Of a DNA stretch of 64,000 bases, positions 28,329 through 54,698 are shown in pieces. Numbering within the stretch: position 1 is the stretch's first letter; every line of letters starts with the position of its first letter. This DNA is from Janthinobacterium lividum (GTDB lineage Bacteria > Pseudomonadota > Gammaproteobacteria > Burkholderiales > Burkholderiaceae_D): assembly GCF_023509035.1 (NCBI RefSeq), contig NZ_CP075583.1:5084001-5148000 (forward strand), read 5' to 3'. The position numbers and the translations under genes are program-made. The notes under the pieces are model-generated. The model did not search any database, had not been told where the DNA came from, and saw nothing but the letters and a program-made list of their open reading frames with translations.

Positions 28329-29048
28329 ATGCATACTGTTTACATCGGCACGGCCGGCTGGAGCCTTTCCAGCGCCGCCGCCAGCCACTTCCCCCGCGAT
28401 GGCAGCCACCTGCAGCGCTATGCTCAGGTGCTTGACTGCGTGGAAATCAACAGCTCCTTCTACCGCCCGCACCAGCCCGTCACTTACGCGCGCTGGGCTG
28501 CCAGCGTGCCTGAGCACTTCCGCTTCAGCGTGAAATTGCCACGCAGCATCACGCACGAACGGCGTTTGCGCGACTATGCGGCCGAACTGGATCGCTTTGC
28601 GGGGGAAGTCTTGCAACTGGGCACAAAACTGGGCTGCGTGCTGGTGCAGCTACCGCCCAGCCTGCGTTTCGATGTGGACGTGGCCGCCGCATTTTTCCAT
28701 GCGCTGCGCCAACGCTTCGGCGGCATGCTCGCTTGCGAAGCGCGCCACCCCAGCTGGTTCGAGGCAGGCGCGACCGAGCTGTTAACGCTGCAGCGCATCA
28801 CGCGCGTGCGCGCCGATCCGCCTGCGGGACAGCCGGGCCCGCACGTGCCGACGACGAGCGTGGCCTACCTGCGCTTGCACGGCAGCCCGAAAATATACTA
28901 TTCGGACTATCCGGCAGATTACCTCGCGGCGCTGGCCGCCGAATTGCGCACACCAGCGCACGCGGGCAGCTGGTGCATCTTCGACAACACGGCGGCCGGG
29001 GCCGCCCTGTTCAATGCGCTGGACTTACACGCACAGATCAGCGCCTAG
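28329..29048 (+). CDS. DUF72 family protein (YecE-like)
   Basis: A 239-aa protein of the DUF72 family, TIM-barrel-like proteins of unknown biochemical role. Recognisable parts are YIGTAGWSLS at the N-terminus, CVEINSSFYRPHQPVTYARW, FRFSVKLPRSITHE, and YLRLHGSPKIYYSDY. The stop codon overlaps that of the convergent NHL lipoprotein by four bases. Nothing nearby explains its role. Confidence 0.85.
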   Translation: MHTVYIGTAGWSLSSAAASHFPRDGSHLQRYAQVLDCVEINSSFYRPHQPVTYARWAASVPEHFRFSVKLPRSITHERRLRDYAAELDRFAGEVLQLGTKLGCVLVQLPPSLRFDVDVAAAFFHALRQRFGGMLACEARHPSWFEAGATELLTLQRITRVRADPPAGQPGPHVPTTSVAYLRLHGSPKIYYSDYPADYLAALAAELRTPAHAGSWCIFDNTAAGAALFNALDLHAQISA

Positions 29049-31306
29049 GGCAACGGCGTCTGCAGCACCGCCTGGGTCGTGAAACCGTACAAGGTACCGT
29101 TGCCGAAGGCGAGGATACTGATGTCCGGATGGCCCCATGCCAATGCTGGCGTGGAAATGACGCCAGCCGTATTGATCTTGCGCACCCAGCCTTGGCCGCT
29201 CAGGTACAGATTGTCGCTCGTATCGAAGGCCAGGCTGGGCGCCCCCGAAAACGGCAAGCCGCCTACGCCTGGCGGACCATCGCCGCCGCTGCCCTTGTTG
29301 AGGGTACCGGCAAAAACGCTGGCCTTGCCCGTGCGATCGGCCCTGAAGACGACTTGATGCACATTATCGTCAAAATACAGATTGCCCTTGCTGTCAAAAA
29401 CCAAGCTGCCCGGGTCCATATACTCCCAGCCATACCCCGTGTCGCCCAGCGAGCGCATCATGGACTCAAATGACAGGAACGCCGAGAACGTTCCGCCGGG
29501 AGGGCGGCGGAAGATGCCGTCGGGGCCCCAGCCCAGCCAGGCCATATAGCCCTCCTTGTCGATCGCCAGCCGATACTGCAAAGGTTTGCCGGTGCCGACA
29601 GGTAAAGCTTCCTGTGTCGAGACCTGGCCATCCTTGCTGATCTTGCGCAGGTTAAACGTAGTGCCAGCAGCTGTCTTGTCAGCAAAATAAACGGCACCAT
29701 CCTTGTCGCAGGCTATCGCGACAGGACCAAGCATCGTCGCGCTTGCGCGCGGCCCGTCATTGCTGCCTGCCTGGCCGGCAATACCCGCGTAGACACTGAA
29801 AGCTCCGTCCGGCGTCACACGGCGCAACACCTTGTTTGTCATATCGAGCAAATAGACGTTGCCCGCAGGATCGCTGCACATGCCCGAGCTACCCACGTAA
29901 CCCACGCGGGCCGCCCCGCCGACAGCTTCGGTCACCCCCATATTGCCCGGCATGAAAGGCATGGCGGACAACACCTTTGTCGCATCGAACCGGACCAACC
30001 GGTGCTTGTTGGCATCGTGGACTATCATGCCGCCTGAAGACTCCAGCAACAGGGAATTGAGATACGTCCAGCCGGCGGAAGCGCCAGCCGCATCGGTCAC
30101 CGTCCCGCCAACCAAGGTAGTCACGTCACCATCCGGCGTCATGCGGCGGATAGCGGTGGCGTCAGCCACCAGCACATTGCCGTCACGGTCGGCCGCCATG
30201 CCGCGAATATTGCGGAAGCTGGCGGCGGCGCCTTTGCCATCCTCGCTCACACGCTTGTTACTTCCCGCAACCACGACGGCCACTCCCTGCTGCCAACGAT
30301 ATATCCGGCTGCCAATCCCGTCGCTGAAGTAGATCGTGCCGCTGGCATCGACGGCCAGTTGCGACGGGGATTTCTTGAACCCCTTGCCATCGACCAGCGT
30401 CTCGGAACTGACGAGTCCCGCGGGCGTCACCCGGCGAATCATTTGCCGCTCAGCATCAGCAAGCAGGACATCGCCATTACTATCCATGGCCATGCCCGTA
30501 GTCCAGCCGAATTGCGCCAGTGCACCTTGCCCATCAGCGACCACTGCTTCCGAAGCAGACCAGTCGCACGCCGCGCTGCGCTGTCCTGCGACCGTGCTGA
30601 CCACGCCGGCTGGCGTAATCTTGCGCAAGAGGGCATTGCAATTGTCGAAAAGATACAGATTCGCCGCGCGATCGATGACCAGGGTCGAAATCCCGCCACT
30701 CATGTGGAAAGTGGCTGCGGTTGCGGCGCCATCGTCGGCGCCTGGCTTGCCAGAAATGCCCGCGTACACGCTCAAGGCGCCGGCAGGCGTGACCTTATGG
30801 ATGACTTGTCGCACAGCATCGGCGATGTAATAGTTGCCGGTCACATCCTGCACCATGCCGGACACATTCTGGATTTTCTCCTGCACGCCCGCCAGCACAA
30901 CTGGCAGGCAACGCACGGCGAGCGTGTTGACGTCCGCATTGCCCACCGTCGCTGCAGCTTTCGCAATGATGCACCCCAGGCCTTCCGACGTGCTGTCGAT
31001 CTTGCCTTCATAACTGGCGCCAGCCGCCAGCTTGCCCGCAAAATTAAAGGCGCCGTTGGCGGTGATGGTGACTTTGTCGCTGCCGTTCGCCAGCACCACC
31101 TGGGCGCCAGGAACCAGGCCGCTGACCGTGCCGCCCACCAGGTAGCGCGGCGCTTCGGTAGCCGGTACGATGGGTGCCGTGGGGGTGCCAGAATCACCGG
31201 AACCGCCTCCACAGGCGCTCAGTCCAGCCAACAGGACAGCACCAGAGCCGGCACGCCTGAACAGGATTTGCAATTTGCCATATCGATTTATCATTGCTGC
31301 TTTCAT
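29045..31306 (-). CDS. NHL-repeat beta-propeller lipoprotein
   Basis: A lipoprotein of about 753 aa with lipobox LLAGLSAC followed by a GGGSGDSG linker, so probably outer-membrane anchored. Residues after about 140 contain many NHL-type blades with the pattern I-x-K-V-T-P-A-G-x-x-S-V-Y-A-G and x-P-x-G-x-A-x-D-x-x-G-N-V-Y; at least ten can be seen, enough for one or two propellers. Such proteins often bind protein or carbohydrate. The start is uncertain: ATG 31306 lacks a good ribosome binding site, and a TTG at 31354 or the ATG at 31294 are alternatives. It is divergent from the GntR operon. Confidence 0.78.
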   Translation of the reverse strand: MKAAMINRYGKLQILFRRAGSGAVLLAGLSACGGGSGDSGTPTAPIVPATEAPRYLVGGTVSGLVPGAQVVLANGSDKVTITANGAFNFAGKLAAGASYEGKIDSTSEGLGCIIAKAAATVGNADVNTLAVRCLPVVLAGVQEKIQNVSGMVQDVTGNYYIADAVRQVIHKVTPAGALSVYAGISGKPGADDGAATAATFHMSGGISTLVIDRAANLYLFDNCNALLRKITPAGVVSTVAGQRSAACDWSASEAVVADGQGALAQFGWTTGMAMDSNGDVLLADAERQMIRRVTPAGLVSSETLVDGKGFKKSPSQLAVDASGTIYFSDGIGSRIYRWQQGVAVVVAGSNKRVSEDGKGAAASFRNIRGMAADRDGNVLVADATAIRRMTPDGDVTTLVGGTVTDAAGASAGWTYLNSLLLESSGGMIVHDANKHRLVRFDATKVLSAMPFMPGNMGVTEAVGGAARVGYVGSSGMCSDPAGNVYLLDMTNKVLRRVTPDGAFSVYAGIAGQAGSNDGPRASATMLGPVAIACDKDGAVYFADKTAAGTTFNLRKISKDGQVSTQEALPVGTGKPLQYRLAIDKEGYMAWLGWGPDGIFRRPPGGTFSAFLSFESMMRSLGDTGYGWEYMDPGSLVFDSKGNLYFDDNVHQVVFRADRTGKASVFAGTLNKGSGGDGPPGVGGLPFSGAPSLAFDTSDNLYLSGQGWVRKINTAGVISTPALAWGHPDISILAFGNGTLYGFTTQAVLQTPLP

Positions 31307-31400
31307 GGTTACCAGCGACGACTTCCGCCAAAAGTTATCAAGTAAGATTCTCAAACACGCAACATTATAGTTTCCTTATGGATAGAAAAACATGAATATG

Positions 31401-32771: not shown

Positions 32772-33769
32772 GTATTTCCCCTGCAAACAAGATGCAATGG
32801 CTGATCCGGCGTGAGTTGTGGGAACACAAGGGCATGCTGGTGTGGACGCCTGCCCTGATCGGCGTCGTCATGACGGTGCTGGGCGCCCTGATGGCGGCCG
32901 CGACCGTCGCAAAGAGCAAAATGCACACGGCGCTCATCGTCAATGGCGAGGAAATTTCCTGGAGCACCGTCTTCAATACGCGCACCTTTGGCCCGCGCCG
33001 CACGGAATTCATCGACGCCGTCGCCAACAACTACACGTACGCGGCTGCGCCGCTGTTCCTGGCACTGGGCTTCCTGGTGTTTTTCTATTGCCTGAGCGCC
33101 CTGCATGACGACCGCCGCGACCGCAGCGTGCTGTTCTGGAAATCGCTGCCCGTCTCGGACACGCAGACGGTGCTGTCAAAAGCGGCCATCGCCCTGCTGG
33201 TCGCGCCGCTGATCGTGGCCGCCGCCGCCAGCCTGACTTCGCTGGCCCTGATCCTCATCCTGAGCGGCGTGCTGGCGGCCAACGGCATCCACGTGTTTGC
33301 CGAACTGCTCGGCTCTTCCGGCCTGTATCTGGGACCGCTGCGCGTGTTTGGCTTGCTGCCCGTGTATTGCCTGTGGGCCTTGCCGACGGTGGGCTGGCTG
33401 CTGATGGTATCGAGCTGGGCCAAGTCGAAAGTCTTCGTGTGGGCCGTCGGCGTGCCCTTGCTGCTGCTGATCCTGACAGTCTGGGCCGGCAAGCTGACGC
33501 AGACGGAAAACGATCTCAGCTGGATACAGATGAATGTCATCGGGCGCGCCCTGCTGGGCACTCTCCCCGGCAGCTGGTACCTGTTCGAGCCGGAACTGCT
33601 GCCGCGCATGCACGCCATGGCAGAAGGGGGATCGCACATGACACGCATCGATGTGTTCAGCAATTCCTGGTCCAGCCTGGCCTTGCCAGCCGCCTGGCTG
33701 GGCGCAGCGGCAGGCGCGGCGCTGATTTACGCCGCCATCCGCCTGCGAAGCTGGCGCGAGGAAGGCTGA
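32768..33769 (+). CDS. ABC-2 transporter permease
   Basis: A 333-aa membrane protein with about six hydrophobic segments (near residues 25-45, 95-115, 140-175, 195-215, 230-250, 305-325). The segment LSALHDDRRDRSVLFWKSLPVSDTQTVLSK is typical of ABC-2 permeases, where a cytosolic loop couples to the ATPase. It is the last gene of the GntR operon, followed by a terminator. Confidence 0.88.
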   Translation: MSISPANKMQWLIRRELWEHKGMLVWTPALIGVVMTVLGALMAAATVAKSKMHTALIVNGEEISWSTVFNTRTFGPRRTEFIDAVANNYTYAAAPLFLALGFLVFFYCLSALHDDRRDRSVLFWKSLPVSDTQTVLSKAAIALLVAPLIVAAAASLTSLALILILSGVLAANGIHVFAELLGSSGLYLGPLRVFGLLPVYCLWALPTVGWLLMVSSWAKSKVFVWAVGVPLLLLILTVWAGKLTQTENDLSWIQMNVIGRALLGTLPGSWYLFEPELLPRMHAMAEGGSHMTRIDVFSNSWSSLALPAAWLGAAAGAALIYAAIRLRSWREEG

Positions 33770-33796
33770 CAGCGCAATATCATCACTACCCCATAC

Positions 33797-33823
33797 AAAA
33801 CGCCCCGCCCGCCGGGGCGTTTT
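33797..33823 (+). terminator. Intrinsic terminator of the GntR-ABC operon
   Basis: A stem-loop with arms AAAACGCCCCG and CGGGGCGTTTT and a short loop, ending in a T-run, lies 28 bp after the permease stop. It can act in both directions because the left arm starts with an A-run. Confidence 0.85.
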
Positions 33824-34530
33824 CCATTTTCACTTCATTCAGGCCCCTGAAATAATAACTACTTTACTGATAGTTATTATGAAGGCCCCTTCACACGTAA
33901 AGACTATTCAATTGATAGCGTTAAATAGATATAAAAATTACAAATAATTATTTCTATCGTATTTTATTAGTAATCACATTTAATAATCGACAGGCAAAAA
34001 AACAACAACTAGCAATTCGATAGCAAGATCCTTTTTTGGATGAAAGCCGCATAAATACTGGAGCACGGAAGCAGACTCAGCCGAATAGCCCGATTTCGTG
34101 ACAATCTGTGATTATTCGCTAGTGAAAGTATTGACAGAATAGTGTCATGGAAAATGATCAAAATAAAATTGAAAGTTTCAAAATTGAAACTACCATCAGA
34201 GTGAAAGCAAGTGCATGCCTCGTGCAAATACAGCTACCTGCCAGTGCGCATCGCATGATCAGCCAGTTGTCAGCGCAGCAAAATACAGGAAAACGGCGAC
34301 ACATCAAACAAATATAAAAATAACATTTTTAATACGACTGAAGAAGCGCTCTCTTCCGCCAGCGTTTTTTTTCCACTTATGTTTTACTTGCCACTATCAA
34401 CATCGGAAACACCAAAGTTCAACCACGGCCCAAGCCTCGCCGGAGCAAGCAAGGAATCGAAACAGATTATTGATTTTTTATTATTTTTAGAAAATTCGAC
34501 GAATACATAACCTTTTCCGGAGACTTTCAA
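33824..34530 (+). promoter_or_regulatory. AT-rich leader and promoter region of the giant surface protein
   Basis: About 700 bp without a convincing gene, clearly AT-rich against a GC-rich background. TTGACA at 34131-34136 and AATGAT at 34153-34158 (16-bp spacer) could be the promoter. Just downstream, AGTTTCAAAATTGAAACT (34174-34191) is a perfect inverted repeat with 8-bp arms, a candidate operator. If this promoter is used, the 5' untranslated leader is about 365 nt. AT-rich DNA before a surface protein is a usual target for H-NS/MvaT-type silencing. GGAG 8 bases before 34531 is the ribosome binding site. Confidence 0.55.
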
Positions 34531-37500
34531 ATGGCCACTACCCAAAATCCAGCACAAGTTCCCGTCAATGCCGAAGGCGCTGCCGCCAAGATCACGACGC
34601 CCGCAAAAAAAGCCGTCAATCCAAAAAATGGCGACCGCAAGCAGTATGACGAAGACGAACTGATAAAAGGGACCGATGCCAGCGCGACCATGCCGCCTGA
34701 AAATGTCGTGGAAGTCACGGGAAGCGCCGATAGCGGCAATGCCGGCGCACTGGGCGCGGCGGCCGCTGTGGCTGCAGCCGCTGCGGCAGCGGGAGGCGGT
34801 GGCGCGGCCGCTGGCCAGGCCGGCAACGGCAGCGCCGACCTCGGCACGCCGCAAAGCGATAACAATGGCGGCGCCGCTGGTGCGGCGGGCACAGGTGCAG
34901 GCGCCGCCGGCATCCCCAGCGGCAGTGTCGTGGATGTCGCCGGGGCGTCGGCTGGCGCGGGTGGTGGCGCCGGCGTCGGCGCTGCGGGTGGCCTGGGCGG
35001 ACTTGGCGTGCTGGGCGCGCTCGGCGGCCTTGGTCTGGTTGCCGCCGCAGCAGGCGGTGGCGGCGGAGGCGGCGCCGCAGCTGGCGGCGCCGACACAGGT
35101 GGCACGGGTACAGGTGGCACGGGCACAGGTGGCACGGGTACAGGAGGAACGGGCGGCACGGGTAACGGTGGCACGGGTACGGGCGGCACCGGCGGTACGG
35201 GTGGCTCGACCGGCGGCCAGGGTGGTACGGGAAATCAATCCACCACCATCCCCGTCACCGACGCGGCCGTGCTGGCCGCCGCCGCAGCCGCGGCCGCCGC
35301 CGCCAATGCCCTGGCCGATGACGCCAGCGCCGCTGCGGCAGCAGCCACGGCAGCAGCTTCGCTGGCGGCGGCGAATGCCGCCATCCTGGCTGACCAACTG
35401 GCGGCACAAGCCGCCGCTGCAGCGGCGGCAGCCTTGCTCGCTGCCAATAGCGCCACCAGCGACGATGCACTGGCAGTCAGCACGGCCGCTGTCGTCCCGG
35501 GCGCACAAGCGGCCGCTACCGTCGCCACGAATGACGACAACGCAGCCGCTGCCGCTGCCGCTACCGCCGCCATATCCCAGGCCGCCGCCACGTCGGCGCA
35601 AAATGACGATGCGGCTGCCGTCACGGCCGCCGCCAACGCCGCCGCCGCGCACGCCGCGGCCGATGCGGCGCAAACACAAGCGGATCAGACCAACGCCCCG
35701 GCATTGCAAGCCATCGCCGATGCAGCCGACGTGGTCGCCACTGCAGCCAACACCCAGGCGGCGCTGACCGATGCGGCGGCGCTGGGTGTCATCTCGGCCA
35801 ATGATGCCGCCGCTGCCGCTGCCGCCACGGCCTTGGCCAATGCCACGGACGCCGCCGCGCTGGATCTGGCGGCAACGGCTGCCGCCAATGCCGCCGTCGC
35901 GGCAGGCATACAAGCCAGCCTGACGGATGCCGCCGCCCTCGCGCTCGTCTCCGATGCCGATGCTGCCGATGCCGCCGCTGCCGCCAGCGTGGCCGCCGCC
36001 ACCGATGCCGCCGCCCTGACCGCCGCCTCGAATGCGGCCGCCACCGCGGCAGCGAATGCGGCAAGCAACGCCAATGCCAGCGACGCCGCAGCACTGGGCA
36101 TTGCCGCCACGGCAGCAGCGAATGCTGCCGTGGCAGCCGCCACGCAAGCAGGACTCACCGACGCCGTGACGCTGACCATGGCAGCGGACGCCGCTGCCGG
36201 CGTTGCCGCCTGGGACGCCTCGATCGCCAACGCCACCGACGCCGTCGACCTGCAAGCCGCCGCCGACGCGGCCGCGACAAACGCCGCCAATGCCCAGACG
36301 CAAGCGAACATGACGGACGCGCCCACCCTGGGTCTGATCGCCGACGCCGCCACCCTGGCGTCGGACGCCGCTCAACTCCAGGCCGGCCTGACCGACGCGG
36401 CTGCGCTGGCCGTGATTTCCGATGCCGACGCCGCGGCAGCGGCGGCTGCCGCCTTGGCCGCCAGTAGCGATGCCGCCGCGCTCGACGCAGCAGCAGCCCT
36501 TGCCGCCACCGTGGCAGCGAATGCCGTCGTCACCGCCAGTCTGAGCGACGCAGCCGCCCTGCAAATCACGGCCGATGCAGCGGCCAGCACAGCCGCCAGC
36601 GCCGCCACGCAAGCGGCATTGACGGACGCCGCCGCCCTGCAAGTGATTTCCGACGCCGATGCCGCCGCCGCGCTGGCAGCGCAAACGACGGCCAACCAGA
36701 CGGACGCGGCCGCCCTCGCCGCTGCCGACGCAGCCGCCGCCAGCGATGCTGCCAATGCACAGACAGTCGCCGACCAGACCGATGTCGTGGCCTTGCAGCA
36801 AGCGGCCGACCAGGCCGATGCCGATGCGGCCGCCGCCAATGCGCAAGCCAGTCTGCTGGACGTCAATGTTGCCCTGAATGCGTTCAATCTGGCCAACCTC
36901 GCTGCCCTGGCCGCCAACGTCACGGCGGGCCAGACCAGCGTCATCGACCTGACGGCCACCGTCAATGCCTTGCAGCTCGGTGCCGATGGCGCCGATGCCG
37001 ATGCCAACCTGACAGACGCCCTCCTCCTTGCCGGCATCTCTGCCGCCGATGCGCTGACGGCGGCTGGCTTGCAAGTCACCGCCAACCTGACCGACGCCGG
37101 AGCGCTCATCAGCGCGGCCGCCGCTGCCGTCTCGGCGGCGGAAACGGCCGCCCTGCTGGGCGGGATCGATATCTCGGCCGTCAGCGCAGCTGCCGCGGCA
37201 CAGGCCGCAGCCACCACTGCGGCCGCCGCTGCCGCTCTGACGGATGCGGGCGCACTGGGACTGGTTTCCACTGCCGATGCCGCCGCTGAACTTGCCGCCC
37301 AGACTGCTGTCACCACCTTGACCGCCGCCAATACGCTGGTGCAAAACGCCCTGGCCACGGCACAATTCGTGGCCAACCAGACCGATGCCGTAGCCCTGGG
37401 CCTGGTGTCGTCGGCCGCCGACGCGGCTGCGGCTGCGGCCGTCACGACCGCTGGCCAGACCGATGCCATCGCGCTGAGCCTCATCTCGAACGCCGATGCG

Positions 37501-40500
37501 CTGGTCGCTACCTCTGCCGCCAGCCTGGCGGCGCTGACGGATGCCACTGCACTGGGACTCATTTCCACGGCAGACGCGACCGCCGCCGCCGCCTTGCAGG
37601 CAACGGCCAACCTGACGGATGCCGCTGCCCTGGGCCTGCTCGCCACGGTCGCCGCCGCGGCCGCCAATACGGCGACGAATGTTGCCAACCTGACCGACGC
37701 CGTGGCTCTGGGCACCGTCTCGGCGGCCGCCACCACGGCCGCCAACACGGCTGCCGCCACGGCCGCGCTGACGGACGCCACGGCCTTGGGCCTGGTCGCC
37801 ACGGCCGACGCGGCTGCCGCTGCGGCCCTGCAAACGACAGCCAACCTGACCGATGCGGTGGCGCTGGGCCTCGTCTCGACGGCCGCCAACACGGCCGCCA
37901 GCGCCGCTGCCGCCGTCGCCAACCTGACCGATGCCGTGGCCCTGGGCACCGTTTCAACGGCCGCCACGGCCGCCGCCAACACGGCAGCGGCCACGGCAGC
38001 ACTGACCGACGCTGTCGCCCTGGGCTTGACGGCGACCGTCGACGCGGCTGCCGCCACCGCTGCGCAAACGACGGCCAACCTGACGGACGCCGTCGCCCTG
38101 GGCCTGGTAGCGACCGTGAATGCCACCGCCGCTACGGCCGCCGCCACCGTCGCTGGCCTCACCGATGCCGTCCTGCTGGGCACAGCCCATACGCTCGACG
38201 TCACGGCCGCCACCGTGGCGGCCACCAAGGCAGCTTTGACGGATGCCGCCGCCCTGACCACCATCGCCAACAACGACGCCGCGAATGCCACCGCCCTGGC
38301 CGCCTATTCGACCGCGCACCCATTGGACCTGGTGGCAGCGCTGGCAGCCACCGTCGCCGCCACCACGGCGGGCTTGTCTCGCACCGCAGCGCTGGCGGCG
38401 CAAGCCGATGATGCGACGGCCGCCTCGACAGCAGCGACGGCCGCAGCGTCCCTGACAGCCCTGAACAATGCGCTCGCGGCCGACAATGCCGCCACTGCCG
38501 CCGCCACCCTGGCCCTGACTTCCCAGGCGGCAGCCACGGCGGCACAACTGGACGACACGCTCGCGGCCACTGCCGCCGGCGTGGCTGCCACCTCGCTGGC
38601 AGCGGCCCAGGCGGCGCAGGCGGCCGACACCGCCGCCGCCGCGACGGCCGCGACGGCAGCCAACGCCCTGGCCTCCCTGAATGCCGCCCTGCAAGCGGAC
38701 GCGAATGCGGCCGCCACGGCCGCCGCCGCCGTGACGGCGAGCGCGGCTACCGCTACCGCCATCGCCGACGATCTGGCGGCTGCGACGGCCGCCACTGTCG
38801 CCAACGTCTCGCAAGCGGCCGCGCAAGCGGCGCAACTGGCAGACAACGCCGCCGCCAGCGCCGCCACCATCGCCGCCAACGCGCTGGCCGCCCTGAATGC
38901 GGCCCTGGCCGACGATGCGGCTGCGGCTGCGGCTATACTGAACTCCACCAACGCCACGGCCGCCGCCGTCGCCGCTACCGCCGCCGACACGGCGGCCGCG
39001 GCAGCCGCCGCCGTGGCAGCCATCTCGGCCGCCGCCACGCAGCACGCACAAGCGGACGATATCGCCGCCGCCGCCGCCGCCCTCACGGCTGCCATCTCGC
39101 TGGCAGCCACGCAGGCCGCGCAGGCAGCCGATCTCGCCGTCGGTACGACCGCGACGGCGGCAGCGAACGCGCTGGCCGCACTGAACCAGGCCCTGGCCGA
39201 CGACGGCGCTGCTGCGGCAGCCAGCACGGCGGCCAGCAATGCGCAAGCGGCCCTGAACGCGGCCACGGCAACACTCAATGCGGCAATCTTGACGGCCAGC
39301 ACCTCGCTCGCCGCCACCAATGCCGCCGTGGGCGCCGACGCCACGGCGGCCAGCACGGCGGCCGCTGCAGCCGCCGCACAACTCCTTGCCGATGCCGCGC
39401 TGGCGGCCGATGCAGGGCTGGCCGCACTCGCGACGGCAGCCAACAATGCACTGGCAGCAGCCAGCGCGGCGCTGGCTGCCGACGATGCCGCCGCCAATGC
39501 CGCGCATACGGCGGCCCTCTCAGCTGCGGCCACCCTGGCGGCGCAACTGGCCGACACGGCGGCCCTCAACGCCCATGCCGCGCTGAATGCGGCCATCGCC
39601 AACCTGAACGCCGCCGTGACGGCCGATACCAACGCCACGGATGCCAACAATGACAGGACGCTGAAACTGAACCTCCTCCTCACCGCCCAGGGTGCGGCCG
39701 ATGATGCGGCCCAGGCCAATGCCAATGCGGCGGCGGCCCATGCGGCGCTGGCGGCGGCCCAGGCCGACGATGCGGCGGCGGCCACCGCTGCCGCGAATGC
39801 GATTGCGGCGCATGCGGCGGCGGTCGCGGCGCAAAATGCCGATGCCGCCGCGGCAGCGGCGGCAACGCAAGCGGCAATCTCGCTGGCCGCCACCCTCAAT
39901 GCCCAGGCGGACGACGCCACCGCGGCAGCGGCCGCCACGGCCGCCGCCAATGCGCAACTGGCGCTGAATGCAGCCCTGGCCGCCGACGCCGACGTCGCCG
40001 CCACCGCCGCTGCGGCAGCCGCCGCCCAGCTGGCGGCACAAAACGCGCATGACGCCGATGCAGCGGCAGCGGCAGCGGCGGTCGCGGCAGCCATTACCCT
40101 GGCAGCCACGCAAGCGGCGCAGGCCGATGACGCGGCAGCCGCACTGGCAGCGGCCAACGCCGCCAACGCCCAGGCAGCACACAACGCCGCCGTCGCCGAC
40201 GACCAGGCCGCAGCAGACGCTGCCGCAACCGCAGCGCTGGCGCAAGCGGCTGCCACGGCCGCTGCGGCAGCCGATGCCGCAGCCACCGCCAGCGCCGCGG
40301 CAGCGGCATCCGCACTGCTCGCCGCACAGGCAGCACAAGCCGACGACACGGCCGCCAACCAGGCAGCGGCGAATGCCGCCGCCGCCACCGCAGCGCACAC
40401 GGCAGCCATCGCCGCCGATGCCCTCGCGGTCAGCACGGCGGCAACAGCGGCCACTGCCCTGGCGGCAGCTACGGCAGCACAGAACGACGATGACGCCGCA

Positions 40501-41589
40501 GCGGCAGCTGCCGCCCAGGCCGCCGCCTCGCTGGCCCTGACCCAAGCGGCACAGGCCGACGATGCGGCAGCAGCAGCTGCCACCATCAGCGCCAACAATG
40601 CGGCCGCCGCCGCGCTGGCCGCCCATGCCGCCGATGCGGCGGCACCGCTGGCACAGGCACAGGCAGCCGCTTCCCTGCTGGCCCTGCAAGCGGCGCAAGC
40701 CGACGATGCCGCAGCCGCCAGCGCCGCAGCGGCTGCGGCGCAAGCGCATGCCAATGCGAATGCCGCGTATGCGGACGACGCGGCGGCAGCCCAGGCCCAT
40801 GCCGACGCGCAGGCTGCCGATGCAGCCCTGGCGCAAGCGAACACCATCGCCGCGCAGACCGACGCCAGCGCCCTGGCCGTCGTGGCGAATGCGGATGCGG
40901 CCCACGCCGCCGCCGTGCAAGCCATCGCCGACCAGACCGATGCCGTGGCGCTCACGCAGGCCGCCAATGCGGCGGCGGCGGCTGCGCTGGCAGCGGCGAA
41001 TACGGCCGCCCTGACGGACGCCAGCGCCCTGCACCTGGCCGCCGATGCGGCGGCCGCCGCCGCCCTGCAAGCGCAGGCGCAGGCGGACCTGACGGACGCC
41101 GGCTCGCTGACGGTAACGGCGAATGCCGATGCCGCAGCGGCAGCAGCAGCCCAGGCCCACGCCGACCTGACGGACGCGAGCCAGCTGTTCGTTCTGAGCC
41201 AGAATGCCCTGCACAACCCGCTGACGGTGGCCGACTTCAGCACCGGCCTGCCAGCCGCCGGCGGTGACGTCATCGACATGTCCGCCATCGCCCACCTGAC
41301 GGCGTCCGTGGCGGTGGGCGTCAACGTGGGCACGGACTTCAGCAACAACAACCTGTTCATCTTCGACGGCACATCCGTGTCGATCGGCGCGGCGGCCAGC
41401 GCCATCGCGGCCGACAACAGCGTCTTGTCGGGTCAGGGCTACATCGTCATCGCCGATGCGCAAAACAGCGGCGCAGTGACGGTGTATCACTCGAGTGACC
41501 TGAGCAACGCCAACGCCATCGACACGGCGCTGGTGCTGCTGAGCGGGGTGAACATCACGCAACTGACGGCGGCCAACTTCGTCGTCTGA
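34531..41589 (+). CDS. Giant alanine-rich repeat protein, probable T1SS-secreted adhesin
   Basis: A 2352-aa very acidic, alanine-dominated protein. Residues 1-60 are polar; about 70-190 are Ala/Gly-rich with a glycine-zipper-like GGLGGLGVLGALGGLGLV; about 190-235 are TGGTGTGG repeats. Two repeat types follow: a 26-residue unit of the form LTDAVALGLVSTAANTAA... (about 385-1210, again 2108-2225) and a 23-24-residue unit built on ADDAAAAAAATAA (about 245-385 and 1290-2100). The last 125 residues form a distinct beta-rich domain ending NITQLTAANFVV, like C-terminal T1SS signals. No Sec signal is present. TolC, ABC and HlyD-like genes follow, so the protein is probably their substrate. Function as a surface or biofilm adhesin is inferred. 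Confidence 0.8.
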   Translation: MATTQNPAQVPVNAEGAAAKITTPAKKAVNPKNGDRKQYDEDELIKGTDASATMPPENVVEVTGSADSGNAGALGAAAAVAAAAAAAGGGGAAAGQAGNGSADLGTPQSDNNGGAAGAAGTGAGAAGIPSGSVVDVAGASAGAGGGAGVGAAGGLGGLGVLGALGGLGLVAAAAGGGGGGGAAAGGADTGGTGTGGTGTGGTGTGGTGGTGNGGTGTGGTGGTGGSTGGQGGTGNQSTTIPVTDAAVLAAAAAAAAAANALADDASAAAAAATAAASLAAANAAILADQLAAQAAAAAAAALLAANSATSDDALAVSTAAVVPGAQAAATVATNDDNAAAAAAATAAISQAAATSAQNDDAAAVTAAANAAAAHAAADAAQTQADQTNAPALQAIADAADVVATAANTQAALTDAAALGVISANDAAAAAAATALANATDAAALDLAATAAANAAVAAGIQASLTDAAALALVSDADAADAAAAASVAAATDAAALTAASNAAATAAANAASNANASDAAALGIAATAAANAAVAAATQAGLTDAVTLTMAADAAAGVAAWDASIANATDAVDLQAAADAAATNAANAQTQANMTDAPTLGLIADAATLASDAAQLQAGLTDAAALAVISDADAAAAAAAALAASSDAAALDAAAALAATVAANAVVTASLSDAAALQITADAAASTAASAATQAALTDAAALQVISDADAAAALAAQTTANQTDAAALAAADAAAASDAANAQTVADQTDVVALQQAADQADADAAAANAQASLLDVNVALNAFNLANLAALAANVTAGQTSVIDLTATVNALQLGADGADADANLTDALLLAGISAADALTAAGLQVTANLTDAGALISAAAAAVSAAETAALLGGIDISAVSAAAAAQAAATTAAAAAALTDAGALGLVSTADAAAELAAQTAVTTLTAANTLVQNALATAQFVANQTDAVALGLVSSAADAAAAAAVTTAGQTDAIALSLISNADALVATSAASLAALTDATALGLISTADATAAAALQATANLTDAAALGLLATVAAAAANTATNVANLTDAVALGTVSAAATTAANTAAATAALTDATALGLVATADAAAAAALQTTANLTDAVALGLVSTAANTAASAAAAVANLTDAVALGTVSTAATAAANTAAATAALTDAVALGLTATVDAAAATAAQTTANLTDAVALGLVATVNATAATAAATVAGLTDAVLLGTAHTLDVTAATVAATKAALTDAAALTTIANNDAANATALAAYSTAHPLDLVAALAATVAATTAGLSRTAALAAQADDATAASTAATAAASLTALNNALAADNAATAAATLALTSQAAATAAQLDDTLAATAAGVAATSLAAAQAAQAADTAAAATAATAANALASLNAALQADANAAATAAAAVTASAATATAIADDLAAATAATVANVSQAAAQAAQLADNAAASAATIAANALAALNAALADDAAAAAAILNSTNATAAAVAATAADTAAAAAAAVAAISAAATQHAQADDIAAAAAALTAAISLAATQAAQAADLAVGTTATAAANALAALNQALADDGAAAAASTAASNAQAALNAATATLNAAILTASTSLAATNAAVGADATAASTAAAAAAAQLLADAALAADAGLAALATAANNALAAASAALAADDAAANAAHTAALSAAATLAAQLADTAALNAHAALNAAIANLNAAVTADTNATDANNDRTLKLNLLLTAQGAADDAAQANANAAAAHAALAAAQADDAAAATAAANAIAAHAAAVAAQNADAAAAAAATQAAISLAATLNAQADDATAAAAATAAANAQLALNAALAADADVAATAAAAAAAQLAAQNAHDADAAAAAAAVAAAITLAATQAAQADDAAAALAAANAANAQAAHNAAVADDQAAADAAATAALAQAAATAAAAADAAATASAAAAASALLAAQAAQADDTAANQAAANAAAATAAHTAAIAADALAVSTAATAATALAAATAAQNDDDAAAAAAAQAAASLALTQAAQADDAAAAAATISANNAAAAALAAHAADAAAPLAQAQAAASLLALQAAQADDAAAASAAAAAAQAHANANAAYADDAAAAQAHADAQAADAALAQANTIAAQTDASALAVVANADAAHAAAVQAIADQTDAVALTQAANAAAAAALAAANTAALTDASALHLAADAAAAAALQAQAQADLTDAGSLTVTANADAAAAAAAQAHADLTDASQLFVLSQNALHNPLTVADFSTGLPAAGGDVIDMSAIAHLTASVAVGVNVGTDFSNNNLFIFDGTSVSIGAAASAIAADNSVLSGQGYIVIADAQNSGAVTVYHSSDLSNANAIDTALVLLSGVNITQLTAANFVV

Positions 41590-41603
41590 GGCAGGGCATC
41601 CAC

Positions 41604-41655
41604 GCCAGGCGCCGCGCCTGGCACGGCAGCGGGAGCGCAAAGCAGCGCGCTCCCG
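41604..41655 (+). other. Two stem-loops between the giant gene and the secretion genes
   Basis: In the 110-bp gap, GCCAGGCG/CGCCTGGC forms an 8-bp stem (41604-41622) and CGGGAGCGC/GCGCTCCCG forms a second (about 41629-41655). Neither has a T-run. They could dampen read-through or protect the long adhesin message, letting one promoter give much adhesin and less transporter. Confidence 0.5.
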
Positions 41656-41699
41656 CCATACCTTGAAATGCGTCAGGCCTCGGGCCGGAAAAATACGGG

Positions 41700-42992
41700 A
41701 TGAGATTACGCGGTTTCCCAGCATTGTCCTTACTGCCACGCATCGCGGCCTTGCTGGCGTCCGTGGCCATGGCATCGGCATCCTCTTTCGCCGGCGCCCA
41801 GGGCGCCACCGCCTGGAGCTTCGACCAGGTCTTGCAGCAGGCGCTGCAAAGCCATCCCGCCGTCCAGGGCAAGCGTTCGGCGCAGGCAGCCGCGCGCGCC
41901 GAACTCGATGGCGCGCAATGGCAGCGCTTTCCCAGCCTGTCGGCCGAAGTGCCCACCGGTTCGCAGGAAACGGGCGGCGTGGTGCGCATCGAGCAGCCGC
42001 TGTGGAGCGGCGGACGCATCGACGCCGGCATCGATGCCGCCGGCAGCCGGGTCGACGCGGCCGGCGCCGCCATCGAGGAAGAACGCCTGACCCTTTCCCT
42101 GCGCGTGATCGCAGCCTACACGGAAGCGCTGCGCCAGACGGCGCGCGTGCGCTCGGCGGAGGCGGGCCTGGCCGAGCACCAGCGCCTGCTGGACATGATC
42201 AAGCGCCGCGTGGTGCAGTCGGTCAGTTCGCAGACGGACCAGCGCCTGGCCGAGTCGCGCGCCTACCAGGCTGCCAACGACGTGTCGAATGCGCGCCAGG
42301 CGCTGGAAAACGCGCTGGCGCAGCTGTCGCAACTGGCCGGCAAACCCGTGCGCCTCGTCAGCGCCACGGGCATCGGCGTGGGCGAACCGCTGCCCGACGC
42401 CAGCCTGGAACGGGTCATGCGCCAGGCCATCGACTACTCCCCCACCCTGCACCGCCTCGATTTCGAGGCGCAGGCAGCCGATTCCGAGATCACCCTGCAG
42501 CGCTCGGCCTACATGCCGAAAGTCGTGCTGCGCATGGAAAAACCGACAGGCGGCATCAATGCCGACAACCGTACGCGCGCCATGCTGGTGCTGCAGGCGC
42601 AGCCGGGCGCCGGCCTGTCGGCCAAGGCTGGCGTGGATGCCGCCGTGGCCCGGCGCGAAGGCGCGCGCGCCGCGCACGACGTGGCCGAACGCGAGGTGCG
42701 CGAACGATTCACGCTGGACTGGAACGAGGCCGAAGCGAGCCGCCAGCGCCTGGGCAACGCGGGCGAGGCCAGCACCACCTCGACGCAGGTATTCGAATCG
42801 TATGCGCGCCAGTACGTGATCGGCCGCAAGAGCTGGAACGACGTGCTCAACGCCGTGCGCGAAGCGACCCAGGCGCAGTTTTCGCTGGAAGACACGCGCG
42901 CGCAGGCCATTGCCGCCAGCCTGCGCCTGGCAGCACAAACGGGCACCCTGGCCGGGCGCACGGCGCCATCAGGCCTGGCGCGCCCGAATTGA
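41700..42992 (+). CDS. TolC-family outer-membrane channel of a type I secretion system
   Basis: A 430-aa outer-membrane efflux protein with a signal peptide (LPRIAALLASVAMASASSFAGA). The mature part begins SFDQVLQQALQSHPAVQGKRSA and shows the two homologous helical repeats of TolC proteins, with RIEQPLWSGGRIDAGID at the first beta-barrel strand. It resembles the LapE/AggA group used for large adhesins. It lies first in the secretion gene set, 110 bp after the giant protein. Confidence 0.9.
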   Translation: MRLRGFPALSLLPRIAALLASVAMASASSFAGAQGATAWSFDQVLQQALQSHPAVQGKRSAQAAARAELDGAQWQRFPSLSAEVPTGSQETGGVVRIEQPLWSGGRIDAGIDAAGSRVDAAGAAIEEERLTLSLRVIAAYTEALRQTARVRSAEAGLAEHQRLLDMIKRRVVQSVSSQTDQRLAESRAYQAANDVSNARQALENALAQLSQLAGKPVRLVSATGIGVGEPLPDASLERVMRQAIDYSPTLHRLDFEAQAADSEITLQRSAYMPKVVLRMEKPTGGINADNRTRAMLVLQAQPGAGLSAKAGVDAAVARREGARAAHDVAEREVRERFTLDWNEAEASRQRLGNAGEASTTSTQVFESYARQYVIGRKSWNDVLNAVREATQAQFSLEDTRAQAIAASLRLAAQTGTLAGRTAPSGLARPN

Positions 42993-43019
42993 CACCGACA
43001 TATGCCAACAGGAGACAGC

Positions 43020-45151
43020 GTGGATACCTCCCTCAAACATGGCTTGCTGACACTCATCGAGCGCGCCGCCCGCCTGGCAGGCCAGCACGTGCCCGCCGCG
43101 CGCCTGGCCGACCTGCAACGCCAGCTCGATGACGTCGACGACAGCGCCCCCCCGCCATGGTCCTGACCACCTTCTGGCAGGCGGCCGGGCTGGAAGGCGC
43201 GGCGCGCCCGCTGCACGAGCCGACGCCGGGTGAGCTGCCGTTCGCCGTCTATAGCGCCAGCACGGGCTGGGGCTTGCTGCAGTCGCGCGGCGCCGACGGC
43301 GCCTGGCGCGGCGAAGGCGTCGATGGGCGCACCTTGCAACTGGCCTCGCTGGCCGGCCTGGCTTGCGTGGCCCTGCCGCGCCGCAGCGAAAAAAGCGGCG
43401 CCCGCCCCGGCGCCTTGGGCCTGGTGCGCAACGCCCTGTGGCTGAAGAAAAGCGTGTTTGTCGACGCCGTGCTGGCCACCGCGCTGGTGACCCTGCTGAC
43501 CATGGCCACCTCGCTGTTCTCCATGCAGGTGTACGACCGCGTGATCCCGAACCAGAGCTTCAGCACCTTGTGGGTGCTGGTGGTGGGCGTGGCCCTGTCG
43601 ATCGGCCTGGAATTCATCCTCAAGCAAGTGCGCAGCCGCATCGTCGACCACTCGTGCAATGACGTCGACCATGAATTATCCGAGTGGTTTTTCCAGCGCA
43701 TGCTCGGCATCCGCATGGAGGTCCGCCCCGCTTCCGTCGGCACCCTGGCGGCGCAAGTGAAGGGCTTTGAAATGGTGCGCGGCGTGCTCACGTCGACGTC
43801 GCTGTTCGTGCTGACGGACGTGCCCTTCGCCCTGATTTTTCTCGCCATGATCACCATCATCGGCGGTTGGCTGGTGGTCGTGCCGCTGGTGGCCCTGCCA
43901 CTGGCCCTCGTGTGCGGCCTGATGTTCCAGCGCGCCATCGAGAATCACACGCGCAAGAATCTCAACGCCAGCAACCGCAAGGCCGGCTTGCTGGTGGAAG
44001 CCGTCGATGGCGTCGAAACGCTCAAGGGCAGCAGCGCCGAATGGATGATGCAGGCGCGCTGGGCCGAACTGGTGGCCGAGAGCAGCCACGCGGAGCAGAA
44101 TATCCGCGACTATGCGGCCCTGTCGCAAAACATCACGGCCGCCTTCCAGCAACTGACCAACGTGGCGCTGATCTCCATGGGTGCGTGGTTCGTGGCGGAA
44201 AACCAGATGACCATGGGCGCCCTGATGGCTTGCACCATCATCAGCAACCGCGCCCTGATGCCCATCGTGCAGCTGCCCGCCGTGATGGTGCAGTGGGCGC
44301 ATGCGCGCGCCTCGATCGACGGCCTGGAACAGGTCATCAGCCTGCCCAACGAAGCGGACAACGCGCAGTTCGCGCTGACGCCGCGCAGCCTCGATACGGG
44401 ACTGCGCTTCGAACGCATCCGCTTTACGTATGGCGGCGCGCAAAAGGTGGCGCTGGAAGCGGAAAGCCTGGCCATCCGCCCCGGCGAAAGAGTCGGCCTG
44501 GTGGGCGCCATCGGTTCGGGCAAGAGCACTCTGCTGAAACTGGCCTCGGGCCTGTACCAGCCGGCCGAGGGGAAAGCCTACCTGGGCGACGTCGACATGG
44601 CCCTGCTGGCGCCGGCCGTGGTGCGCGAAATGGTCGGCTACCTGCCGCAGGAAACGCGCCTCTTCAGCGGCACCCTGCGCGACAACCTGTTATTGGGACT
44701 GGCCGACCCGGGCGAGGAAGCGATCCTGGCGGCGGCCAGGCGCACGGGCCTGATCGAGCTGATACTGGGCCAGCCACGCGGACTGGCGCTGGGCATCACC
44801 GAAGGCGGACGCGGCGTGTCGGGCGGCCAGCGGCAATTGATCGCCGTCACGCGCCTGCTGCTGGCCAAGCCGCGCATCTGGCTGCTCGATGAACCGACGG
44901 GCGCCATGGATGCGAAAACGGAAGCGCGCATCGTGGGGCTATTGGGCGAACTGGCGGCCGAAGGCGTGACCATGGTCGCCACCACGCACAAGAACGCCCT
45001 CTTGCCGCTGCTCGACCGCCTGGTGGTGCTGCAGGCGGGACGGGTGCTGCTCGACGGCCCGCGCGACTTTGTCCTGGCCAAGCTGTCGGGCAAGCCGCAG
45101 GCCGTACCCAGTCCCGCAACTGCGCCGGTGGCGCAAGGAGCCGTCGCATGA
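43020..45151 (+). pseudogene. Type I secretion ABC exporter (LapB-like), one-base frameshift
   Basis: An inner-membrane ABC exporter with an N-terminal degenerate C39-like domain, a membrane domain and an ATPase. The GTG at 43020 follows AGGAGA and encodes SLKHGLLTLIERAARLAGQHV; the frame ends at 43166 because a run of seven C (43147-43153) is one base short. With one more C it joins the downstream frame and gives 710 aa, close to LapB-type exporters. The membrane part includes LFSMQVYDRVIPNQSFSTLW. Walker A is GAIGSGKSTLL, the signature VSGGQRQL, Walker B IWLLDEPTG. If the break is real, an ATG at 43157 would still make a 664-aa protein without most of the C39-like domain. Confidence 0.88.
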
Positions 45152-46317
45152 AGCTGGCCAAGGTCGAGACGCGGGAAGAGGCCAAACGGGGCCGGCTGCT
45201 GATCTGGAGCTGCACGCTAGCGCTGGCTTGTGTCATCGCCTGGGCTTCGTGGGCCGAGCTGGACCAGGTCACGCGCGCCAACGGCCAGGTGATCGCCAGT
45301 TCGCGCAACCAGATCATCCAGGTGGCCGATGGCGGCGTGCTGGCCGAGCTGCGCGTGCATGAAGGCAGCGTGGTGAAAAAGGGCGAACTGCTGGCGCGCT
45401 TCGACCGCACGCGGGCCGAGACGAGCTACCTGGAAAGCACGGCCAAGGCGGCCGGGCTGAAGGCGGCCGTGGCGCGACTGCAGGCGGAAGTGTTTGGCGG
45501 CGCGCCGAAGTTCCCGTCCGAATTGCAGGCGTTCCCGGAATTTCGCGCCAACCAGCTGGCCCTGTTCAGCAAGCGCCAGGGCGCCGTGCAAGCGGAAGTG
45601 AGCTCGCTGGAAAGCGCCATGAAGCTGATCAAGGAAGAGCTGGAAATGAATTTGCCGCTGCTGGAAACGGGGGATGTCAGCCGCGCCGAGGTGCTGAAAC
45701 TGCGGCGCCAGGTGGTCGACATCCAGGCACAGATCACCAACCGGCGCAACAAATACCTGCAAGACAGCCAGACGGACCTGGTGAAAGCCCAGGAAGACCT
45801 GGCCGGCGTGCTGCAGACGGTGACGCAGCGCAAGGAGCAGCTTGGCTCGACGGACATTTACGCGCCCACCGACGGCATCGTGCGCAATGTGCGTCTCACC
45901 ACCCTGGGCGGCGTGGCCAAGCCGGGCGAGGAAATCCTGCAGATCGTGCCCACGGACGATGACCTGATCATCGAGGCAAAAGTCAAACCGGCCGACATCG
46001 CCTTCATCAAGCCCGGCCTGCCCACGGCCGTGAAACTCGACGCCTATGACTACGGCATCTACGGGCGTTTGCGCGGCACCGTCAGCTACATCAGCGCGGA
46101 CACTTTAAATGAAGACAACAAGGGCAACGAGCAGCCGTACTACCGCGTGCAGATCAAGACCAGCGGGCGCAATCTGATGGGCAAGAATGGCGAGCCGATC
46201 TTGATCCAGCCCGGCATGACGGCCACCGTGGAAATCAACACGGGACGCAAAACGGTCTTGCGCTACCTGACGAAACCGATCACCAAGACGTTTTCAGAGT
46301 CGATGGGGGAGCGCTGA
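45148..46317 (+). CDS. HlyD-family periplasmic adaptor of the type I secretion system
   Basis: A 389-aa membrane-fusion protein linking the ABC exporter to the TolC-like channel. One N-terminal transmembrane helix (LLIWSCTLALACVIAWASWAEL) is followed by ANGQVIASSRNQIIQVADGGVLAELRVHEGSVVKKGELLARFD (lipoyl-like domain), a coiled-coil hairpin (about 100-230) and YAPTDGIVRNVRLTTLGGV returning strand. It ends with IKTGR-type MTATVEINTGRKTVLRYL. Its ATG overlaps the ABC stop by 4 bp. No LapD/LapG-type protease genes are visible nearby. Confidence 0.93.
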   Translation: MKLAKVETREEAKRGRLLIWSCTLALACVIAWASWAELDQVTRANGQVIASSRNQIIQVADGGVLAELRVHEGSVVKKGELLARFDRTRAETSYLESTAKAAGLKAAVARLQAEVFGGAPKFPSELQAFPEFRANQLALFSKRQGAVQAEVSSLESAMKLIKEELEMNLPLLETGDVSRAEVLKLRRQVVDIQAQITNRRNKYLQDSQTDLVKAQEDLAGVLQTVTQRKEQLGSTDIYAPTDGIVRNVRLTTLGGVAKPGEEILQIVPTDDDLIIEAKVKPADIAFIKPGLPTAVKLDAYDYGIYGRLRGTVSYISADTLNEDNKGNEQPYYRVQIKTSGRNLMGKNGEPILIQPGMTATVEINTGRKTVLRYLTKPITKTFSESMGER

Positions 46318-46345
46318 CGCAGCGGGCTACGTCAGCCGGCCGGCT

Positions 46346-53884: not shown

Positions 53885-53969
53885 GCCCACGTGGCGGAAT
53901 TGGTAGACGCGCATGGTTCAGGTCCATGTGCCTTCGGGTGTAGGGGTTCGAGTCCCTTCGTGGGCACCA
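53885..53969 (+). tRNA. tRNA-Leu(CAG), copy 1
   Basis: An 85-nt class II tRNA starting GCCCACGTGGCGGAATTGG, anticodon CAG in the loop TTCAGGT, long variable arm with CTTCGGG loop, T-loop GGTTCGAGTCC and encoded CCA. It decodes CUG, the commonest leucine codon in high-GC genomes. It has its own terminator. Confidence 0.97.
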
Positions 53970-53988
53970 TTACCTAATTCGCAAAAAG

Positions 53989-54020
53989 GCCGCAAACTTT
54001 CACGAGTTTGCGGCTTTTTT
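53989..54020 (+). terminator. Terminator after tRNA-Leu copy 1
   Basis: GCCGCAAACT and AGTTTGCGGC form a 10-bp stem with a 6-base loop followed by six T. A near-identical hairpin follows copy 4. Confidence 0.9.
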
Positions 54021-54219
54021 CATTTCCGCGACGAAAATCCCCCTCCCTTCGGCCAGTCGGCCAGTCAGCCGGACTGCGGCAAGCAGACAGCACGGCACAC
54101 CCACGGACAGCAACCTGCGGGAAACGCTGAAAAAACAGGCAGATTTAAGCTTTTTTCATAGGGAACAGCCCTTTTCAGGCGAAAAAACATGTTTCTTGAA
54201 GAAAAGTGCAAAATGTTGA

Positions 54220-54248
54220 TTGACCGAATGCGCGCCAGCCCTTATGAT
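54220..54248 (+). promoter_or_regulatory. Promoter of tRNA-Leu copies 2-4
   Basis: TTGACC (54220-54225), a 17-bp spacer and TATGAT (54243-54248) form a good promoter about 42 bp before copy 2. It is needed because copy 1 is followed by a full terminator. Confidence 0.68.
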
Positions 54249-54297
54249 TTTGTCCTCGCTGCAGAACACGCAGCGACAAGCAGCAAGCAGTAACAAT

Positions 54298-54382
54298 GCC
54301 CACGTGGCGGAATTGGTAGACGCGCATGGTTCAGGTCCATGTGCCTTCGGGTGTAGGGGTTCGAGTCCCTTCGTGGGCACCA
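54298..54382 (+). tRNA. tRNA-Leu(CAG), copy 2
   Basis: Identical in sequence over its 85 nt to copy 1, anticodon CAG, encoded CCA. First gene of the second transcription unit. Confidence 0.97.
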
Positions 54383-54450
54383 CCAGCAACAAGTTGTCGA
54401 TTGTTGTGATCCGCAGTAAAGTAGCAGATAGCAGTAACAAGCAGCACAAT

Positions 54451-54535
54451 GCCCACGTGGCGGAATTGGTAGACGCGCATGGTTCAGGTCCATGTGCCTT
54501 CGGGTGTAGGGGTTCGAGTCCCTTCGTGGGCACCA
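54451..54535 (+). tRNA. tRNA-Leu(CAG), copy 3
   Basis: Identical to the other copies, separated from copy 2 by 68 bp whose last part (CAAGCAG-rich) resembles the leaders of copies 2 and 4. Confidence 0.97.
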
Positions 54536-54613
54536 CCAACAACGGGTTGTTTTCGTTGTAGTCCGCAGTACAGTAGTGAGATACAGCAGTCATCAGCAGC
54601 AAGCAGCATCAGT

Positions 54614-54698
54614 GCCCACGTGGCGGAATTGGTAGACGCGCATGGTTCAGGTCCATGTGCCTTCGGGTGTAGGGGTTCGAGTCCCTTCGTGGGCACCA
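54614..54698 (+). tRNA. tRNA-Leu(CAG), copy 4
   Basis: Identical to the other copies. Its flanks on both sides match those of copy 1 (GCAGCATCAGT before; CATTACCTAATTCGCAAAAA after, then the same terminator). Confidence 0.97.

Follow-up and report, generated by a model that had tools for sequence, protein, structure and literature searches.

The window analysed here, a stretch of 64,000 nucleotides from Janthinobacterium lividum, carries a four-gene cassette (33770..46332, forward strand) that, as judged by blastn against genomes lacking it, behaves as a single unit of presence or absence, flanked by a permease gene and udk. The first of its genes (34531..41589, +) is an ATG ORF, preceded by GGAG, whose product of 2352 amino acids is predicted to be a giant alanine-rich T1SS substrate. 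The other three encode, on the same strand, a TolC-type outer membrane channel (41700..42992; PF02321, E 2.2e-37; TIGR01844, E 4.2e-36 and 124.8 bits, which is under the cut-off of 225), a T1SS ABC transporter of the LssB type (43157..45151; TIGR03375, E 6.6e-197 and 656 bits, slightly below the cut-off of 693.1), and an HlyD-type adaptor (45148..46317; TIGR01843, 319.9 bits against a cut-off of 208.65).

The giant gene is preceded by a long A+T-rich region (33770..34530, +), and a sigma-70-like TTGACA site matching the consensus at 10 of 12 positions lies at 34131 (+) in a better-conserved part of it; sites called by consensus match alone numbered 7, with 1.8 expected. Two strong stem-loops (41604-41622 and 41629-41656, +) separate the giant gene from tolC. 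The 114 nt containing them fold at -56.3 kcal/mol (z -2.57; 2 of 200 shuffles were equally good), and visual comparison of 14 orthologs shows the second stem almost unchanged in 8 and modified in 4, while 2 have a different stem in its place. It is possible that these stem-loops form an attenuator or an mRNA stabiliser, and they may hold expression of the substrate above that of the exporter.

Blastn alignments of five non-carrier loci (L091 and L095-L098) all end at 33769, and they resume at 46333 in four cases and at 46352 in L091. In another non-carrier, L092 of genome G008, a 49-codon remnant of the 3' end of hlyD (78% identical) is left between permease and udk; since this end remains, the cassette was lost in that lineage. 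The udk match of the same locus contains one in-frame TAG. Among 12 non-carriers, the permease gene was found in 10 and udk in 10, and the two matches lie 45-492 bp apart in 6, namely the five loci above and L092; among 19 loci of carriers and relatives, the fetched stretch contained the permease gene in 13 and udk in 10. Neither gene was found at L071, L073 and L085, although the stretch extends kilobases past the giant gene there, and the cassette can therefore also sit elsewhere.

Janthinobacterium is a genus of soil and water bacteria. Among the 37 genomes of the genus that were searched, the C-terminal domain of the giant protein (E <= 0.01) and the ABC gene (E <= 1e-150) occur together in the same 21 and are both missing from the other 16, so that they are concordant in 37 of 37; the ABC gene also occurs in one genome of another family. 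The loci collected numbered 14, of which 13 are from Janthinobacterium and one from a Burkholderiaceae MAG. Two further features of the window were noted outside the cassette. Close to it, 29045-31354 (-) encodes a 769-aa protein that by eye has NHL-like repeated segments and a lipoprotein-like N-terminus, and at 53885-54698 four tRNA-Leu(CAG) genes stand in a row, 153-413 bp from start to start.

A single alanine-dominated protein

The frame of the giant gene contains a single stop codon, located at its end, according to both the ORF list and the sequence. The protein has a mass of 211.2 kDa and a pI of 4.05, and consists of 44.7% Ala, 10.0% Thr, 8.8% Leu and 7.2% Asp. In its rod (aa 241-2215) Ala rises to 49.4%, and the charge is carried almost exclusively by Asp (152 Asp, as against 2 Glu, 2 Lys and 2 Arg); the rod has 6 Pro. 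A gene with a G+C content of 72.8% and long antisense frames might be taken for functionless low-complexity drift, a reading to which we give practically no credence. It is already contradicted by the conserved length and register of the orthologs, by the co-occurring transporter, and by the dN/dS values. The latter, computed for 5 of the 13 full-length orthologs, are 0.12, 0.14, 0.14, 0.24 and 0.24 over the whole gene (dS 0.34-1.32), and range from 0.04 to 0.28 in each sub-region, repeats included. Because of these values, we conclude that the frame is genuine and is kept by purifying selection, and the single 2352-aa protein described in an earlier note on this DNA stands.

The N-terminal part begins with a charged segment (34531..34725, +; aa 1-65) that ends in a conserved MPPENVVEVTG. 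By eye, a hydrophobic Gly/Ala segment followed by poly-Gly can be recognised further on (34987..35073, +; aa 153-181), and then comes a Gly-Thr linker (35086..35250, +; aa 186-240), which the alignment identified as the chief site of length variation among orthologs. This part had been described as glycine-zipper-like, and it is indeed glycine-rich (32% Gly in aa 1-240). NCBIfam contains models of retention modules and Bap prefixes; no retention module or Bap prefix was recognised in aa 1-245, which matched 0 NCBIfam families at E 0.1.

The rod is built of two repeat types, which the earlier note had described as interleaved. They form successive blocks instead, in the order ADD, LTDA, joint, ADD, LTDA. 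Periodicity delimits a first ADD-type block of about 6 units (35251..35706, +; aa 241-392), followed by an LTDA block of 26-aa units (35707..38316, +; aa 393-1262; about 33 units by length), which is also marked by its motif. A Pro-containing joint between both long blocks (38317..38397, +; aa 1263-1289) is conserved in the ortholog alignment, with an H, a P, a D and an L invariant in 14 of 14 sequences. The second ADD block, again delimited by periodicity, has about 34 units of 24 aa (38398..40845, +; aa 1290-2105), and the last LTDA units, about 4 by motif and AF2 model, lie at 40846..41172 (+; aa 2106-2214). The protein closes with a C-terminal domain of 138 aa (41173..41586, +; aa 2215-2352), whose homologues form the ends of T1SS substrates of the RTX/Ig type.

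The periodicity of both long blocks is well above chance. At lag 26, non-Ala identity in the LTDA block is 0.47, with a maximum of 0.224 in 200 shuffles, and at lags 24 and 72 the ADD block reaches 0.34 and 0.42, with a shuffle maximum of 0.264. The unit length of 26 given earlier for LTDA was right, and the 23-24 given for ADD is corrected to mostly 24, with some units of 23 or 25; on a 24-residue ruler, the position of DD drifts by 2-4 residues. The pattern x[T/S]DAxxL occurs 35 times in the protein, and in these 35 LTDA units the positions fixed by the pattern (D3, A4 and L7) have an ortholog conservation of 0.98, the others of 0.70-0.96.

Typical repeat adhesins vary in repeat copy number. 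The 13 full-length orthologs are 64-93% identical, their length changes mostly in the Gly linker, and 10 of them have at most one gap column relative to the window after aa 245, so that the number of repeat units is nearly fixed. In L070 and L071 the 24 gap columns include a single insertion of 5 residues, and L062 (G018) has five repeat indels of 9-27 residues (+9, -26, -15, +11 and -27), which may be real or an assembly effect; the -26 corresponds to exactly one missing LTDA unit. The alignment comprises 13 of the 20 other carriers in the genus. Those left out have a broken frame (G011/L069), lie at a contig edge (G003/L072, G006/L075, G017/L076 and G024), contain 36 N within the gene (G016/L073) or come from a distant MAG (G027/L035), and the later carriers G149 and G313/L090 stand outside it. 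The L069 ortholog is split into overlapping frames of 1473 and 1902 codons, by a frame break or a sequencing error. In L073 the N occupy 9990-10025, just past the poly-Gly, inside a very short ortholog (536 aa including the gap) of a one-contig genome; since such a run marks a gap or a masked stretch, we do not trust the short length.

Fold of the two repeat types

Structure prediction gave contradictory answers for the rod. For aa 980-1420, AF2 drew the ADD part as long helices and the LTDA part as a beta-solenoid, with one strand run of 20-24 residues per 26-aa unit and 10-residue pLDDT means of 69-84. For aa 2050-2352, it drew both the ADD and the LTDA units present there as helices, at a low-confidence mean pLDDT of 52.3. 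The solenoid of the long LTDA block, and the low confidence of the helix models, count against a wholly helical rod. The solenoid raises the alternative that the LTDA blocks are beta-solenoids and the rod a fibre of mixed beta-solenoid and helix, which would also agree with the power of the averaged-unit hydrophobicity at periods 2.0 and 2.89, and with the by-eye resemblance of LTDA to an ITDAG motif that follows the RTX repeats of several of the related proteins P0001-P0006. On the other hand, the five AF2 models of aa 980-1420 differ widely in confidence (average pLDDT 69.7, 55.4, 51.7, 45.5 and 42.7), the LTDA units near the C-terminus were drawn as helix, LTDA contains 43% Ala, and Chou-Fasman values favour helix (1.15 vs 0.98). 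Moreover, Pratt et al. (2025) report that AF2 makes confident but unrealistic beta-solenoids of perfect repeats, and that the same artefact may affect near-perfect natural repeats (PMC11795689).

Because the AF2 solenoid belongs to this reported class of artefact, the conservation of each residue among the 13 orthologs was used as an independent signal. Its spectrum peaks at 95-100 degrees per residue in LTDA (z 4.8 against 60 shuffles) and at 105 degrees in ADD (z 5.9 against 60 shuffles), and at 160-180 degrees it falls below the shuffles in both (negative z). Over whole blocks, the top peaks lie at 97.0 degrees in LTDA (26/7 residues per turn) and at 105.0 degrees in ADD (24/7); LTDA has a second peak at 111 degrees, with a power of 9.4 vs 12.4. 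In 5000 permutations that kept the repeat but scrambled the order within it, the seventh harmonic had a p of 0.0032 in LTDA (0.04 when the maximum over harmonics is taken) and was equalled in none for ADD (0.0014 by the same measure). When non-Ala residues or large hydrophobics alone were considered, the seventh harmonic was not significant (p 0.07-0.55), and the averaged 26-aa conservation profile gave a p(max) of 0.097 with the 13 orthologs and of 0.023 with the two most divergent.

The controls were mixed. The hairpin of HlyD peaks weakly at 100 degrees (z 1.7) and rises again, to 1.6, at 150 degrees, its beta part peaks at 175-180 degrees (z 2.3-2.4), and the giant protein's own C-terminal domain is lowest at 100 degrees (z -2.1). 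TolC, a helical protein by its structure, nevertheless had no positive peak in its conservation spectrum. Along with the helical period, a conserved packing face was found: Ala makes up 74-77% of the most conserved face of ADD, as would suit helices packed tightly through Ala. The best reading of these patterns is that both repeat types would be helical, with conservation following seven turns per 24 or 26 residues and not beta periods, and we consider a beta-solenoid in the LTDA blocks unlikely. Conservation periodicity and part of the AF2 models in this way support the helical, acidic, Ala-rich rod proposed earlier, and the proposed dissimilarity to LapA-type beta repeats agrees with the lack of any Pfam or NCBIfam family match at E 0.1.

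It should be noted that, for units of 24 and of 26, seven is simply the integer number of turns that comes closest to 3.6 residues per turn, and seven turns are therefore no proof of one continuous helix. If the rod were one, its 1975 residues (at 0.15 nm each) would give a fibre of up to about 0.3 micrometre. A giant intramolecular hairpin, with the LTDA arm lying on an ADD arm of about equal unit number, was considered and dropped, because repeats with 3.71 and 3.43 residues per turn would supercoil in opposite senses. Since AF2 gave one and the same repeat type a beta fold in the first of its blocks and a helical fold in the other, the protein offers a natural test case for the beta-solenoid bias of this program.

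Exporter, C-terminal domain and possible function

The earlier note's proposal of a T1SS substrate agrees with the adjoining TolC, ABC and HlyD genes, with the concordant presence or absence of C-terminal domain and transporter in the 37 genus genomes searched, and with the homology of the C-terminus to RTX/Ig proteins; the protein would, then, be secreted by this exporter. Identity between the C-terminal domain and the ends of P0001-P0006, proteins with RTX and/or Ig-type domains, is 55-64%. That the C-terminus forms a separate domain, as had been suggested, is borne out, and its proposed beta-rich nature rests on the RTX-type relatives and a low-confidence model. A Pfam search with 12 C-terminal domains gave nothing significant (best E 0.038), and no credible match came from sequence searches of the PDB (best E 0.9 and 0.23). 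With a single C-terminal sequence as query, the domain was found in 28 of 392 genomes of the family, 23 in the genus and 5 outside it; with a C-terminal profile at 1e-10, samples of 398 phylum-wide and 399 order-wide genomes yielded the window's own genome alone. The domain is also present in proteins of a Gallionella MAG and of metagenomes, and therefore extends beyond the family. No relative was found in viral contigs.

The giant surface proteins exported by T1SS are usually portrayed as beta rods stiffened by Ca2+, and LapA, SiiE and MpAFP are giant adhesins of this RTX/Ig type. Outside the genus, L087 encodes such a protein, a giant of 4942 aa with 13 Ca_tandemer stretches (NF033510) and the same C-terminal domain, and beside it lie related TolC (54%) and ABC (64%) genes. 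The L087 stretch yielded no match to HlyD, while HlyD is present in those of L086, L088 and L089, whose large proteins likewise end in the C-terminal domain. The ABC genes beside the five relatives outside the genus are 63-68% identical to that of the window, and one of these relatives, L085, encodes an Ala-rich protein of 559 codons with the C-terminal domain. Because the beta rod of L087 and the Ala-rich L085 both adjoin related exporters, exporter and C-terminal domain appear to be common to beta rods and Ala-rich rods.

The window protein shares further traits with the RTX/Ig-type giants, namely a charged N-terminus, a hydrophobic Gly/Ala and poly-Gly segment and a very long rod. It differs from them in that its rod is predicted to be Ala-rich helix, and it has no GGxGxD repeats (0 matches to GGxGx[DN] and 0 to GxGxD, so that the RTX nonapeptide GGxGxDxUx is not found), and no Ig, cadherin or Big domains. 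The beta-sandwich repeats of LapA/Bap-type adhesins (Ig, cadherin, Calx-beta) are likewise absent in Pfam and NCBIfam searches at E 0.1, and at this threshold no ligand-binding domain was recognised anywhere in the protein. LapG (PF06035) had 0 matches in the window's genome; a control search matched 1 of 14 genomes, that of a Caulobacter. As neither RTX repeats nor LapG were found, the calcium-driven folding and LapG release of LapA do not apply. Its exporter and C-terminus place the protein among the giant T1SS surface proteins, but in rod, calcium motif and release system it stands apart from RTX/LapA.

The reading we favour, with a probability of roughly 0.65, is that a dedicated T1SS serves this one giant substrate, in which a calcium-free, Ala-packed helical surface rod replaces the usual beta rod. 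By homology and from the established T1SS pathway, we infer that the C-terminal 138-aa domain would act as the export signal, and that the ABC-HlyD-TolC machine would thread the chain outward, C-terminus first. Outside the cell, both repeat types would fold, without calcium and without Ca2+-binding RTX repeats, into an Ala-packed alpha-helical and presumably stiff rod, as a coiled coil or a helix stack. The hydrophobic Gly/Ala segment near the N-terminus probably retains the protein inside or at the TolC pore, which would leave the rod on the cell. Such a long acidic surface fibre would most likely mediate contact between cells or with surfaces, or else scaffold the matrix, its helices doing what related systems do with Ca2+-stabilised Ig-like domains.

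Against this reading, the searches recognised neither a retention module nor a release protease nor a domain for ligand binding. The same absences, including that of LapG from the window's genome, would fit a protein that is secreted and released, as a matrix protein or a silk-like coiled-coil fibre between cells, and is not a tethered adhesin. Honeybee silk, reported to be an Ala-rich tetrameric coiled coil (PMC12284834), is a secreted fibre protein of Ala-rich helices with small residues at packing positions, and the conserved ADD face is Ala-rich in the same way. It differs in being an unrelated animal protein, with coiled-coil regions of about 210 aa in four different chains and salt bridges on the outside (PMC12284834), whereas the blocks in the window exceed 800 aa and Asp is almost their sole charge. 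What speaks against release is that the hydrophobic Gly/Ala and poly-Gly layout recurs, by eye, in L035, L073, L085, P0007 and P0008, and even in L087, a giant of the Ig type, as would be expected of a shared retention device. We regard a released fibre as a minority possibility, though one to be taken seriously, and prefer the tethered helical rod.

The Ala/Thr-rich helices also recall the type I antifreeze proteins, and an ice-binding or freeze-protection role had been raised in the earlier note. This option found no support, and we consider it very improbable. The units are of 24 and 26 residues, with no 11-residue Thr spacing (Thr pairs at lag 11 number 15 in LTDA and 4 in ADD, with 12.7 and 5.7 expected), and there is no family match in Pfam or NCBIfam.

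More tentatively, and as a conjecture that is possible but goes well beyond the tethered rod, the protein may be the bacterial equivalent of coiled-coil silk, a helical fibre with an Ala core and no need of Ca2+. It would have originated within an adhesin system of the RTX/Ig type through a swap between beta and helical rods, the exporter and C-terminus being retained, with seven turns per unit in both repeats and a unit number fixed as a length ruler. If a helical, calcium-free rod is indeed carried on a related exporter and C-terminus, the exporter would prove able to accept very different rods, L087 and the window protein would form a natural pair for asking what the rod itself contributes, and the system would provide genetically encoded helical fibres that are very long and rich in Ala. 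Among titles and the starts of abstracts in the open-access literature, we found neither this protein nor a T1SS adhesin with a helical rod. The accessible part of an article on another Janthinobacterium strain counts three T1SS and names no such substrate (PMC8929069).

Relatives with much shorter rods were also found. L035, L085, P0007 and P0008 (451-640 aa, with L035 and L085 counted from stop to stop) have by eye the same N-terminal layout and C-terminal domain around a short Ala-rich middle, which in P0008 also contains Glu and Asp; they differ from the window protein in having at most a few recognisable units and no giant regular array. L035 and L085 adjoin a related T1SS, with ABC proteins 74% and 68% identical, and a collapse of repeats is possible in L035, which comes from a MAG. 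A search for homologs of the LTDA region listed none at 1e-10 among 8000 scored candidates; as the existing Janthinobacterium orthologs were likewise not listed, this is no evidence of absence. In several of P0001-P0006, by eye, ITDAG or a similar motif stands near the place of the last LTDA unit, and the ITDAG of RTX proteins is a possible origin of the LTDA unit.
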